From a virus, in the IMG/VR virus record IMGVR_UViG_3300045119_000482, positions 1 to 23,761 of that record: a DNA stretch of 23,761 nt; one strand, 5' to 3'. Shown in pieces: positions 15,701 to 23,761 of the stretch (within the stretch, counting starts at the first letter, position 1; the number at the start of each line of letters is the position of its first letter). The position numbers and the translations under genes were made by a program. The notes beneath the pieces are model-generated. The model saw only the letters and a program-made list of their open reading frames with translations. It was not told the DNA's origin and did no database searches.

Positions 15701-15724
15701 GTGTCTGGTAGCCGTGTCTGGTAG
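15701..15724. repeat. Att region direct repeat 1 (candidate integrase arm site)
   Basis: This 24-base segment contains GTGTCTGGTAG twice, 13 bases apart. The same 24-base unit occurs at 15929-15952 with one mismatch. The two copies flank the half-tRNA core, as arm-type binding sites of tyrosine integrases do. Confidence 0.6.
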
Positions 15725-15734
15725 CGCCTGTAAG

Positions 15735-15779
15735 TGGTGGGCGCTGCAGGAGTTGAACCTGCGACCTCGTGCGTGTGAA
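15735..15779 (-). other. attP: attP core: 3' half of a tRNA-Val(CAC) gene
   Basis: Read on the minus strand this 45-base segment is the 3' part of a tRNA. It holds an anticodon loop TTCACAC with anticodon CAC, the 3' anticodon stem GCACG, variable loop AGGTC, T stem GCAGG, T loop TTCAACT, CCTGC, acceptor AGCGCCC, discriminator A and an encoded CCA. The D arm and the 5' acceptor strand (expected GGGCGCT) are absent on the 5' side, so it is not a functional tRNA gene. Tyrosine integrases commonly cross over at the anticodon loop and carry the 3' half to restore the host gene. The integrase gene begins its 3' end 50 bases away. Confidence 0.85.
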
Positions 15780-15829
15780 GCCCGAAGATAGTCCAGCCTT
15801 TTACTCGTTTTCACCCAATGAATCCGGCC

Positions 15830-17098
15830 TTATTTCGCGATCCGGAGGCCGGATCGCCCCTGATTATGCCGTTTCGTATACTGCGATTTCCTTAACAATA
15901 TCGTCTGGTTTTCAGTCGTTTTCTGAAAGTGTCTGGTAGTCGTGTCTGGTAGTGGCGGTGTGGCGCGCGCGGCGAGGAACGCCGCGGCGGCGTCGGTCGC
16001 GGCCTGGAGATGCGCCGGCACGGCCGCGAGTCGATAGCGTTTCGTGGTGACCGGGTTCTTGTGGTCGAGCAGCTCGCCGGTGACCGCGTCGCTGCCGGTC
16101 AGTTGAAAGATCAGCGAGCCGAACGAGTGGCGCAGGTCGTAGGGCACCATGTCGGACAGGTCGACGTTGGGATTGACCTTGCGGAGCTCGGCCTGCGCCA
16201 GGTCGCGCGCGCGGATGAACGTCTTGCGCAGCGAGCCCCGGGTGAACGGCCCGAAGGCGTCCGCGGCGACGAAGTCGCGGAACGCCTCGACGGCCAGGGG
16301 GAGCAGGGGCTTTCGTTTGAAGCCGACGGCGCCGGGCTTGCCTTTCTTCCGTCCGCGGACGAGGAGGTTGGGCGGCGTGTCGTCCAGGTGGAGATCCTTC
16401 GGCTGGACGAGTTTCAACTGCGCCGGCGTGAGGGGCGCGTACGCCAGCACGCGCAGCCGGATGGCGCCCAGGCTCGGCAGGGGGCGCTTCTCGGGCAGGA
16501 GGCGGCTCGGCTGGCCCTTCGCGGAGCGCCGCCACTTCACCCGGAGGAAATACAGGATCGTGTCGACGATCGCGTAGTCGACGCCGCGCGGTTCGGCCTC
16601 GGGCTCGATCTCGCGATCGATCTCGCGGAACGGGTTCGGCGCGTTCTCGCCGTCAAGCACGGTGTAGACGTGGGCGAGGGCATCGCGGCACTTGTTCACC
16701 GTCGACGCCGCGTACCCGGCGGCGATCAGGGTGTTGAGCGCCCGCCGCAGCCGCGGCGCGTCGAGTGTGTGCCACGGCACGTCGCCGAGGCCGGCCTGGC
16801 CACACCACCACTCGAAGAAGCGGATCCGCTGGGTGCGGTTGTCGTCGGAGAGTTTGGCGGTCGCCAAGTACGTGACGATCTTGGCGCGTACGGTGCCGCG
16901 CGTGACGCCGGCGCCGCGGGCCTTCCGCAGCTTCAACTTTTCGGTGTCGCGCCAGATGATCATGTCCTCGAGCCGCGCCGACGGCGGGAAGCGCTCGGTG
17001 GTCTCGAGCAGTTCGGTCTTCTTCGAGCCGAGGCAGGCCCGGACCTCGTAGCCGCTTGCGTCTTGGTAGATGCCGGTCGCGATGCGTTTCTTGGTCAT
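15830..17098 (-). CDS. int: Tyrosine-type site-specific integrase, with unusual catalytic residues
   Basis: A 422-residue protein. The N-terminal arm-binding part has GIYQDASGYEVRACLGSKKT. The core-binding helices lie around residues 65-150. The catalytic part has APLTPAQLKL (221-230), a basic hairpin GRKKGKPGAVGFKRKP, YDLRHSF (320-326), LLDHKNPVTTKRY with His346 and nucleophile Tyr355. At the place of the first catalytic Arg (usually T-G-L-R-..-E-L) there is Thr224. The usual His of HxLRH is Tyr320. The second Arg, the late His and the Tyr are present. Start ATG 17098 has AGGA 7 bases upstream. Next to a half-tRNA att site on the same strand as the tRNA, it catalyses integration. Its 3' end overlaps the second arm-type repeat. 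Confidence 0.88.
   Translation of the reverse strand: MTKKRIATGIYQDASGYEVRACLGSKKTELLETTERFPPSARLEDMIIWRDTEKLKLRKARGAGVTRGTVRAKIVTYLATAKLSDDNRTQRIRFFEWWCGQAGLGDVPWHTLDAPRLRRALNTLIAAGYAASTVNKCRDALAHVYTVLDGENAPNPFREIDREIEPEAEPRGVDYAIVDTILYFLRVKWRRSAKGQPSRLLPEKRPLPSLGAIRLRVLAYAPLTPAQLKLVQPKDLHLDDTPPNLLVRGRKKGKPGAVGFKRKPLLPLAVEAFRDFVAADAFGPFTRGSLRKTFIRARDLAQAELRKVNPNVDLSDMVPYDLRHSFGSLIFQLTGSDAVTGELLDHKNPVTTKRYRLAAVPAHLQAATDAAAAFLAARATPPLPDTTTRHFQKTTENQTILLRKSQYTKRHNQGRSGLRIAK
15837..15857. other. Hairpin at the 3' end of the integrase gene
   Basis: GCGATCCGG and CCGGATCGC are perfectly complementary around the loop AGG. It overlaps the last codons of the integrase and has no T-run after it. By position it recalls the retroregulatory sib hairpin after lambda int, but the role is inferred. 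Confidence 0.45.
15929..15952. repeat. Att region direct repeat 2 (candidate integrase arm site)
   Basis: Second copy of the 24-base unit (23 of 24 identical to 15701-15724), again two GTGTCTGGTAG elements 13 bases apart. A shorter relative, GTCTGGT, lies at 15903-15909. It falls inside the integrase coding sequence, where it encodes the stretch around LPDTTTRH. Confidence 0.6.
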
Positions 17099-19567: not shown

Positions 19568-19966
19568 GTGGCCGACCATCACAGCGACACCATCCCTGTT
19601 CTCGCGCGCCACGACCAGGTCCTCGAAATTCACTGGCGCTTCGCGGACGGGCGCGAACACGTCGAGCATCGGCAATGTGCGTACTACGTCGACTCCCGGC
19701 GCGCGGACGGGAAGCTCGATCGCATTCTCGCGCACCTGGAGGGCTTGATGGCGACACAGGCGGATCTGAAAAAAGAACTCGACACGATCAAGGACGGCGT
19801 CGCGAATCTACTGACGAAGGCGACCGCCAACGCGCAGACGATCGCGGAGCTGCAGGCGCAGGTCGCGGACGGCAGTCCGGTCACCCAGCAGCAGCTCGAC
19901 GATCTCAGCACCGAGGCGCAGGGCATCGTCGACACGTTGACGCCGCTGGCGCCGCCCGCGGTCTAG
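19568..19966 (+). CDS. Two-part early protein with coiled-coil C-terminal half
   Basis: A 132-residue protein from GTG 19568; AAAGG lies 7 bases upstream. Residues 1-60 are a small beta-rich part (LEIHWRFADGREHVEHRQ). Residues 61-132 are a coiled coil, LKKELDTIKDGVANLL, with SPVTQQQLDDLSTEAQ. The C-terminal part matches a widespread small phage protein, and an internal ATG at 19748 could express it alone. Its role is unknown. Confidence 0.58.
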   Translation: MADHHSDTIPVLARHDQVLEIHWRFADGREHVEHRQCAYYVDSRRADGKLDRILAHLEGLMATQADLKKELDTIKDGVANLLTKATANAQTIAELQAQVADGSPVTQQQLDDLSTEAQGIVDTLTPLAPPAV

Positions 19967-19980
19967 CACGGCCGACGCGG

Positions 19981-20024
19981 TCCCGGCGGCAACTTCTTTT
20001 AAAGGAGAGGAGAGGCCGCCGGGA
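19981..20024 (+). promoter_or_regulatory. RNA hairpin with a ribosome-site-like loop
   Basis: TCCCGGCGGC (19981-19990) pairs perfectly with GCCGCCGGGA (20015-20024). The 24-base loop has TTTTAAAGGAGAGGAGAG, rich in anti-rRNA sequence, yet no start codon lies at the right distance (next starts GTG 20033, ATG 20045). It may regulate translation of the DUF1376 gene. Confidence 0.5.
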
Positions 20025-20044
20025 TCGTCGAGGTGCGAATCGCG

Positions 20045-20395
20045 ATGGAGCACGCGCCCGCGTTTCAGTTTTACCCGAAGGACTTCCTGACCGACGGCCA
20101 TGTCGCCGGGATGAGCCTCGCGGAGCGCGGTGCGTACATCACGTTGCTCTGTCTCTGCTGGCAGGACGGGTCGTTGCCGGCCGATCTCGGTCGGTTGGCG
20201 CGGATGGTGGGGGAGCCGGATGCCGGCTTCCGGCGGCTCTGGCCGGCGCTGGAACCGTGCTTCCGGAAACAGGACGGCCGGTTCGTCCAGCCCCGGCTCG
20301 ACCAGGAACGCCAGAAGCAAGCGGCGCGGCGCGAGGCGGCGCGCAAGAGCGGGACGAAGGGCGCGGCGGTGCGATGGCCACGGCCAGCTAAATAA
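20045..20395 (+). CDS. DUF1376 (YdaU-like) replication-type protein
   Basis: A 116-residue protein from ATG 20045 (GTG 20033 is the alternative). APAFQFYPKDFLTDGHVAGM, SLAERGAYITLLCLCWQDGS and LRRLAR-like DLGRLARMVG are the DUF1376 signature. A 'RF.qprL...r' end (FVQPRLDQERQKQAARREAA) is followed by a basic Gly/Lys tail. In phages and prophages this domain occurs in replication-initiation-type proteins, usually followed by a longer variable tail. Here the protein stops soon after the domain; the sequence after the stop holds phased repeats and peptide-like fragments in another frame. Role in replication initiation or helicase loading is family-level inference. Confidence 0.75.
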   Translation: MEHAPAFQFYPKDFLTDGHVAGMSLAERGAYITLLCLCWQDGSLPADLGRLARMVGEPDAGFRRLWPALEPCFRKQDGRFVQPRLDQERQKQAARREAARKSGTKGAAVRWPRPAK

Positions 20396-20661
20396 CGTGG
20401 CGAACGGATAGCGAGCGAATCACCAACACGATAGCGAATCGATGGCGACCCTATAGCGAAGGCGGGCGCAACACGGTGGCGAGGCGATGACGAATCGACG
20501 AGCAAAACATGGCTCTCCAATCTCCAATCTGCGGATCGCTTCGCGATCCTGCTCCAATCTCCGATCTGACGAGATCGGGGTCGTTCGATCGACCGTGATC
20601 CGTACGTCCGTCCGCCTTAGATCGATCAATTAGAACTTCGCGCAGACGCGAGTTTTCACGA
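20396..20661. other. Gene-free repeat-rich segment, origin candidate
   Basis: A 266-base segment with no credible gene. TRGCGA recurs at 20398, 20409, 20432, 20443, 20454 and 20477 (spacings 11, 23, 11, 11, 23). Perfect short hairpins follow: GGATCGC-TTC-GCGATCC near 20534-20550, CCGATCT-GACG-AGATCGG near 20561-20578, and TCGCG-CAGA-CGCGA then GTTTT near 20639-20657. Origins in phages often lie in or next to the replication gene, so this may be the origin. Confidence 0.5.
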
Positions 20662-21153
20662 ATGGCTCAAGAAAACAACGCGACGCACGACATCGACCAC
20701 CGTGGCCGGCTGCTGGCGAAGCTGGTGTGGGCACTCTTGAAGACCGGCGACTGTGCGACGTTGCCGGATCTGACCGAGGCGCTCAAGTATCGCTGTGCGC
20801 AGCTCCGCATTCGGTGGACGAACGACGACATCAACAGCGCGTATCGCCTCATCAGCTCCAACACGCCGCTGCCCGGCGATCGCCCGCGTCCGCCCGTCCT
20901 GGTTGAGCGTCTGCCCGAGGCTGAGACGTTCACGCGCGTCGATGCCGCCCAGGTGCTGGCGACTGTGCAGGCGAAGCTCGGCACGATCCCGCTGAAACGG
21001 ATCCCGACCGTGCGGAAGGTGACCGCCTTCGATCGCGACCGCGTCAAGGCCGCGCAGATGCTGGCCGCCGAGATCGTCGCGTCGATCGCCCGGTGTGAGG
21101 CGCTCGAGGCGCGGCCGGCCGCCGAGGCGTCGGCGTCGGAGGGGTCCGCGTGA
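20662..21153 (+). CDS. Early/replication-region protein of unknown function
   Basis: A 163-residue protein, mostly helical at first (RGRLLAKLVWALLKTGDCAT, LPDLTEALKYRCAQLRI), then RLISSNTPLPGDRPRP. A helical C-terminal part and an Ala/Glu tail complete it. No ribosome site is clear before ATG 20662; a small stem followed by GTTTT lies directly upstream. The next gene overlaps by 4 bases. No family is recognised; a DNA-metabolism role is inferred only from the neighbours. Confidence 0.58.
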   Translation: MAQENNATHDIDHRGRLLAKLVWALLKTGDCATLPDLTEALKYRCAQLRIRWTNDDINSAYRLISSNTPLPGDRPRPPVLVERLPEAETFTRVDAAQVLATVQAKLGTIPLKRIPTVRKVTAFDRDRVKAAQMLAAEIVASIARCEALEARPAAEASASEGSA

Positions 21154-23302: not shown

Positions 23303-23742
23303 GCGCCCTGCATCCGTGTGCTATGCCGCACTGTCCCGCCCTGTTGCCGCGCGGCGTGAGCCGGTGTCCGACGCATGCGCGTCAGCAGGAGCAGATCCGC
23401 GGGACGGCGCACGCGCGCGGCTACACCTCCCGCGACTGGCAGCCCTTCCGCCGGCGCTTCCTCGCCGCCCTGGTGCAGGCGGGGATCGGGCCGGTGTGTG
23501 GGGCCGCGCTGCCAGATGGACCGAGGCAGCGCGACAGCGCGTGCCGCGACGCGGGGCTCTTCACCTTCACGAGCGCCGATGGCTCGAGCTTGCATCTCGA
23601 TCATGAACCAGCGCTGCGGGACGACGAGCGATCGGATGTGCGCGCGGTCTGTGACCTGAATCGCATCGTGTTGAAATGTCAGGCGTGTCATGCCGCGAAA
23701 ACCGCGCGAGATGGCGGCAGGGGGGGGATTCAAAGTGTTTGA
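23299..23742 (+). CDS. HNH endonuclease (terminase-associated type)
   Basis: A 147-residue protein. The N-terminal CAMPHCPALLPRGVSRCPTH is a small metal-binding part. Then come GYTSRDWQPFRRRFLAAL, LHLDHEPALRDD (the HD of the HNH motif), and NRIVLKCQACHAAKTARDGG (N and H with CxxC). This order is the phage HNH type located beside terminase in cos phages, where it is needed for DNA cutting during packaging. The terminase genes are expected just right of the window. An eight-G run (23715-23722) lies in the last codons, where a slip would extend the frame. Confidence 0.8.
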   Translation: MSALHPCAMPHCPALLPRGVSRCPTHARQQEQIRGTAHARGYTSRDWQPFRRRFLAALVQAGIGPVCGAALPDGPRQRDSACRDAGLFTFTSADGSSLHLDHEPALRDDERSDVRAVCDLNRIVLKCQACHAAKTARDGGRGGIQSV

Positions 23743-23761
23743 CCGATCGGCCCTCCGAAAC

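Follow-up and report, generated by a model that had tools for sequence, protein, structure and literature searches.

Origins of replication that lie inside the gene of their own initiator are already known, the lambda O gene and the RepA_N plasmid initiators being the closest described systems. In lambda, iterons and an AT-rich tract occupy the middle of O (PMC7466680, excerpted text). In plasmid pSK41, the first 120 residues of Rep bind four boxes central in the rep gene, Rep can do without the linker encoded there, and a host-specific C-terminal domain contacts the primase (PMC5703833, excerpted text). In the Rac prophage there is an origin, oriJ, that is active but kept under repression (PMC3945230, excerpted text). 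Within the excerpts of the open-licence literature searched, we found neither the position of oriJ relative to ydaU nor a description of an origin within a DUF1376/ydaU gene, and the class considered here, DUF1376 genes in which 11-bp iterons are joined by a heptamer/TCT tract, appears new relative to those excerpts.

The locus under study lies in a 23,761-base IMG/VR virus record, referred to below as the window, meaning the whole stretch of DNA that was analysed. A repeat array is found just 3' of the stop codon of a DUF1376 gene and is followed by a 7-bp pyrimidine repeat. Judging mainly from the linker DNA of relatives, together with its own sequence and the modelled fold of the DUF1376 product, this array is likely a putative iteron origin of the lambda-O/RepA_N kind, bound by a DUF1376 initiator and left outside the reading frame. 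A close relative, L002 (IMGVR_UViG_3300047408_000092), encodes a DUF1376 protein 89% identical to that of the window, with an early stop and an array in the matching place. The region comprises the following features:

20033-20395, plus strand: DUF1376 gene, 120 aa, with an alternative ATG at 20045; it consists of the domain alone and lacks the C-terminal domain seen in relatives.
20396-20505, plus strand: putative iteron array, 110 bp, about 10 degenerate 11/12-bp units, with periods 11 and 34.
About 20407-20445, plus strand: peptide DSERITNTIANRW, with a stop at 20389-20391 in its frame, not joined to the DUF1376 frame.
20513-20531, plus strand: first block of the pyrimidine-rich 7-bp tandem repeat TCTCCAA (TRF: period 7, 20514-20530).
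20533-20549, no strand: perfect hairpin with a 7-bp stem, absent from L002 (16-nt gap).
20552-20568, plus strand: second copy of the pyrimidine block, CTCCAATCTCCGATCTG (repeat family D5, 94% identical).
20559-20661, no strand: intergenic block, 98% identical to L002 (101/103).
20561-20578, no strand: perfect hairpin with a 7-bp stem, conserved in L002.
20573-20590 and 20579-20594: hairpins with 5-bp stems.
20638-20651, no strand: 5-bp hairpin TCGCG-NAGA-CGCGA, shortly before the next gene and shared with L002.
20662-21153, plus strand: next gene, 163 aa, with relatives in L024 (98%), L028 (39%) and L025 (33%).

The product of 20033-20395 belongs to the DUF1376 family (PF07120; E 6e-11, 43 bits against a curated cut-off of 30.1), and its PHROG matches (phrog_9327, 3992 and 6451) are all labelled 'primosomal protein'. 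An AlphaFold2 model built from 61 sequences (pLDDT 95.3) shows helices with a wing of two strands and, at the C-terminus, a long helix, i.e., a predicted winged helix. Its best four VIA-align structural matches were 4pql (Z 7.1, rmsd 2.5 over 74), 5kbj (Z 6.5), 4pt7 (Z 6.3) and 4pta (Z 6.1), with the DnaD N-domain 2vn2 at Z 5.7, on a scale where, according to the tool's note, models lacking any clear relative commonly score 7-8. We take 4pql and 5kbj, whose own titles read DNA-binding protein and Rep-DNA complex, to be RepA_N initiator domains. 4pt7 and 4pta are given as RepA_N domains in the excerpted text of PMC7145576. Foldseek E-values for the model were all >0.05, none of the 61 DUF1376 members matched Pfam RepA_N (PF06970) at E up to 1, and the structural likeness of the modelled domain to RepA_N initiators is suggestive only. 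A sequence search of solved structures with DUF1376 gave three matches, all at E >0.5, and these were rejected. Based on the predicted fold, the protein is best described as a putative origin-binding winged-helix initiator.

The initial annotation of this DNA had reported six TRGCGA elements behind the DUF1376 gene at spacings of 11, 23, 11, 11 and 23, and these proved exact: on the plus strand they start at 20398, 20409, 20432, 20443, 20454 and 20477, spanning 20398-20482, and none of 5000 dinucleotide shuffles of 20396-20661 matched either the number of sites or their pairs at 11, 22 or 23 nt. TRGCGA is a common word across the window (34 occurrences on the plus strand, 11 on the minus strand), and the unusual part is its clustering and spacing, not the word itself. 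The period extends beyond this word, roughly in 11-12-nt units of about TRRCSAAYCGA, where both the unit count and the consensus are by-eye readings. Self-identity of 20396-20505 reaches 52% when the sequence is shifted by 11 nt and 58% when it is shifted by 34 nt, each attained in 0 of 2000 shuffles, and a scan of the whole window ranked this stretch as the top place for period 11. Peptides typical of DUF1376 tails had also been noted in one frame, and DSERITNTIANRW is indeed present there; it probably represents iterons read as codons. An Rfam search of 19900-20800 gave no match, a sigma-70 promoter search found none, and the terminator-like sites were two, both weak and on the minus strand. 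GC skew, suggested earlier as a check on an origin, shows no reversal near 20.4 kb in this window, which is a fragment.

The perfect hairpins said to follow the repeats were confirmed as an excess: five are present where mononucleotide shuffles average 0.69, none of 500 such shuffles having as many, and the single-strand DNA fold of 20505-20661 has a z of -2.8. G+C at 20501-20560 is 0.45-0.55, the stretch being pyrimidine-rich without a strong A+T dip, and its TCTCCAA block is likely the counterpart of the heptamer/TCT-serine tract of relatives, described below. The TCGCG-NAGA-CGCGA hairpin is also kept at L028:3004-3017 with one loop change, though the adjoining 163-aa gene is only 39% identical.

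Identity between L002 and the window falls from 93% in the winged helix to 70% in the C-terminal helix and 59% in the array, then returns to 70% in the pyrimidine tract and 98-99% beyond it. The L002 array has stops in all frames and retains periods 11 and 34, each in 0 of 2000 shuffles. Hence the array changes fast yet keeps its period, unlike what simple decay would predict, in an argument drawn from this one close relative. Two further genes are truncated: in L028, which also has a related ORF downstream, period 11 is only weakly present (0.42), and in L064 the gene stops where the domain does, ahead of a period-11 stretch. The window and L002 records also end on identical last 27 bases (23735-23761 and L002:5460-5486), just after an HNH gene, as if this common end were a physical genome end, e.g., a cos site beside terminase genes.

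The 163-aa product of the next gene had no Pfam or PHROG match and a poor AlphaFold2 model (pLDDT 60); it is a possible candidate partner of the truncated initiator, by position only. At L025:3161-3709, a relative of this gene stands behind a different, 182-aa protein, by eye another initiator type, a context suggesting an accessory role in replication for the 163-aa family. Pfam and PHROG scans of ten window ORFs picked out no helicase or loader. Elsewhere in the window, 15739-15785 beside the integrase gene resembles by eye the 3' half of a minus-strand tRNA, an ARAGORN scan of the window finding no complete tRNA, and two pairs of GTGTCTGGTAGYC direct repeats (15701-15725 and 15929-15953) are located nearby. 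Together they likely represent an attP core with integrase arm sites.

The same kind of DNA periodicity was examined in relatives, using the best 80 of 430 DUF1376 matches in viral contigs plus 2 loci from genomes. Most DUF1376 genes are 200-380 codons long, with a linker 3' of the domain. From these 82 loci (L026-L107), 13 were excluded from the linker tests, either as identical or near-identical copies from other contigs (L031, L043, L047, L055, L057, L082, L084, L088, L092 and L101), because they run off the contig (L040 and L085) or because the sequence is masked (L107). The linker period test covered 62 of 66 non-redundant genes, the tail being too short in the window, L028, L064 and L083. 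Each linker was compared with a null in which the protein is held fixed and synonymous codons from the same gene are shuffled. Since 11 is not a multiple of three, consecutive 11-nt units are each translated in another frame and so encode different residues.

Against this null, period 11 was enriched in 24 of the 62 linkers at p<0.05 and in 13 at p<0.01, including repeats such as GGTTCAACCAC in L030, AAGCAGACGGA in L027 and GTCAACAGACC in L061. Period 12 followed (19/62 and 10/62 at the same thresholds), then period 7 (15/62 and 5/62), while periods 10 and 13 were at background, with 3/62 each. Taking any of 11, 12, 22, 23 or 34 nt at p<0.01, 25 of 62 linkers carried a signal and the other 37 showed none, compared to 3/62 for any of the control periods of 10, 13, 20, 25 and 31 nt. 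A run on 65 linkers, from which only near-identical copies had been removed, gave concordant results. Other ORFs of the DUF1376 loci served as a control and reached p<0.05 for period 11 in 10 of 278 segments and p<0.01 in 1 of 278. Within the 51 long-enough genes, p<0.05 was reached by 19 linkers, 2 C-terminal parts and 8 N-terminal domains. The mild excess inside the N-terminal domain coding region (8/51 at p<0.05, 5/51 at p<0.01) lies above background. In lambda O, used as a positive control, the method returned periods 23 and 24 (p 0.006 and 0.008) over codons 112-182, a stretch for which the lambda record annotates iterons at 20/24/23-nt steps; two other stretches of O had best periods of 32 (p 0.03) and 40 (p 0.02), with no 23/24.

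One word, GTTCAAC, was counted 29 times in linkers where 4.9 were expected; 20 of the 66 linkers contain it, and its occurrences cluster in the first 90 nt beyond the domain. A universal iteron core was considered by comparing the phase-folded 11-nt consensus of 23 arrays with GGTTCAACCGA, and was rejected. The best matches were L036 (10/11), L030 (9/11), and L035 and L104 (8/11 each); the window and L002 matched at only 6/11, a value equalled or exceeded by chance about half the time for the window, and we therefore do not propose that the window shares this core.

A second module lies beyond the iterons in these linkers, where TTCATCTTC-type DNA words exceed the synonymous null. TCTTCA-type words peak 60-120 nt after the domain, with 1.95 vs. 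0.49 per gene in the first 30-nt bin (59 genes), and this peak coincides with a G+C dip of 9-10 points vs. 3 expected (58 genes). Serine is coded by TCT in 55% of cases at the word peak vs. 14% elsewhere. Tandem 7-nt repeats include GATCTCC (L033, L029), AGTCTTC (L105), GAAGCCA (phiLM21) and CGATCTC (L002); a 7-nt repeat of at least 70% identity over 28 nt was detected in 8 of 69 loci, the TCTCCAA of the window being weaker at 57%. In L033, L029, L105 and phiLM21 (L127:2882-2909), the 7-nt repeat is located in coding sequence behind the 11-nt array, where it may act as an unwinding element, as a site for single-strand binding or in some other way.

Several named phages and prophages carry such linkers. 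Period 11 was significant in Sinorhizobium phiLM21 (p 0.002, with TTCAACGGACG in tandem) and in Pseudomonas UFJF_PfDIW6 (p 0.002, four units at 11-nt steps), where the gene order is cII, DUF1376, DnaC, NinB-like, the lambda counterpart being cII-O-P. The YdaU linker of E. coli Rac is periodic at 23 nt (p 0.002), 33 nt (p 0.002) and 11 nt (p 0.006). The Paracoccus Pkon1 linker was marginal (p 0.06), the period test gave no signal for the Bradyrhizobium ppBeUSDA76-2 linker, and the Baldr DUF1376 gene is too short to hold a testable linker. Many neighbours are replication genes: among 20 genes scanned downstream of DUF1376 in relatives, nine encode a DnaB helicase, with one more below the cut-off, and two an IstB/DnaC-type ATPase, in a sample enriched for helicases because the first ten genes were picked for length.

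These observations are best explained by a model in which the DUF1376 winged-helix initiator would bind successive 11-bp units along one face of the DNA. The array would then form the initiator-binding half of a phage replication origin at which replication starts, and the pyrimidine-rich tract and hairpin region would be the site of strand opening and helicase loading. In most relatives, this origin would lie inside the initiator gene and be translated as a disordered linker. In the window phage and L002, the gene stops at the putative DNA-binding domain and the origin would be the non-coding DNA behind it, loss of the C-terminal part having left it outside the frame; the next gene (20662) may supply the lost helicase or primase contact.

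The most serious rival holds that the array is a decayed coding tail, i.e., a frameshifted, drifting remnant of a repetitive DUF1376 linker with no present role. DUF1376-tail-like peptides do occur in two frames (DSERITNTIANRW, and NNVANG with a SPISNLR-like peptide in the same frame), the C-terminal domain has been lost, and the array is the least conserved segment from the DUF1376 start to the next gene (59% vs. 93% for the winged helix). However, the 11- and 34-nt periods persist in L002 after this divergence, the truncation is common to L002 and is also seen in L028 with its related downstream ORF, the C-terminal domain is wholly gone, and L064 likewise stops at its domain with a periodic stretch behind. 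The DNA-level 11-nt repeats of intact genes also account for the tail-like peptides, and we consider decay unlikely. The initial annotation had left iterons and a decayed tail side by side: the iteron-like phasing gains support from the 11-nt DNA period of relatives' linkers and simple decay loses it, while the two ideas it had joined, iterons and a DUF1376-like tail, are compatible, the tail peptides probably being DNA repeats spelled as codons. Under the origin reading, which is the best-supported account, peptides and iterons would be one thing seen twice. Alignment with relatives had been proposed to see whether the tail is intact; it is intact in many more distant relatives, and the early stop recurs in the close relative L002. 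Relatives with a normal in-frame tail of unphased repeats had been named as the contrary case; many relatives are in-frame, but their DNA is phased at 11 nt in 24 of 62. The suggested overlap with an origin, as in lambda O, is well supported through relatives, whose intact genes carry the array inside, where lambda O has its origin.

Arrays of about 11-bp repeats are also found in ParR/parC systems, and a cooperative regulator would be equally well served by direct repeats of 11 bp that share one face of the helix, so that the array could instead be an operator or a parC-like centromere serving regulation or partition. This appears improbable given that the array of relatives sits inside the DUF1376 gene and adjoins helicase genes, and that no ParM/ParR-like gene was recognised by Pfam among the ten window ORFs scanned. 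That Ser/Pro/Gln-rich linkers yield DNA repeats by chance or slippage, as a by-product of low complexity at the protein level, would fit the low-complexity nature of these linkers and the enrichment of period 12, a multiple of three. Such an origin of the repeats is nevertheless very hard to credit: neither 11 nor 7 is a multiple of three, the null holds the protein fixed, periods 10 and 13 remain at background, and the array in the window is non-coding.

Extending the origin reading from this locus to the family, we lean towards the view that DUF1376/YdaU proteins are widespread, unrecognised phage initiators, that their linker codons hold a two-part origin (11-bp iterons, then 7-bp TCTYC-type repeats or TCT serines), and that some lineages, e.g., that of the window, have split the origin from the gene. 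If so, 'poly-serine' and 'VQPxGN/MAND' DUF1376 linkers would be by-products of selection on DNA sequence. This would provide a testable function for a domain of unknown function that occurs in many phages and prophages, among them Rac of E. coli K-12 (ydaU), and would predict the replication start sites of DUF1376 phages. The comparison of non-multiple-of-three DNA periods with a synonymous-codon null also offers a simple rule for intragenic origins, one which recovered that of lambda, and the window phage would represent a natural experiment in separating an origin from the gene of its initiator.

Compared to known systems, the likeness seen to lambda O is one of layout. In O, a DNA-binding N-terminal domain is followed in the gene by iterons (from codon about 116), then by an A+T-rich tract, and a helicase-loader gene comes next. 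The order of modules in DUF1376 linkers, putative iterons then a tract that would open easily, is the lambda origin order (PMC7466680, excerpted text), and a helicase or loader gene lies downstream in 12 of the 20 relatives scanned, one of these being a weak match. In lambda, 18-bp iterons are spaced 20-24 bp apart, whereas DUF1376 units are 11-12 bp, and the arrays of the window and L002 follow a stop codon, whereas intact DUF1376 relatives carry the repeats within the gene. RepA_N initiators of the pSK41 type are close in their linker layout, with a winged-helix N-terminal domain of about 120 residues and boxes central in the rep gene, as far as the excerpted sources describe them. They differ in belonging to Gram-positive plasmids rather than phages, in the C-terminal domain that the window gene lacks, and in their inverted-repeat boxes, which are longer than DUF1376 iterons (PMC7145576, excerpted text). 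A further counterpart is YdaU of the E. coli Rac prophage, an annotated DUF1376 protein that is followed by YdaV and has a linker periodic at 11, 23 and 33 nt.
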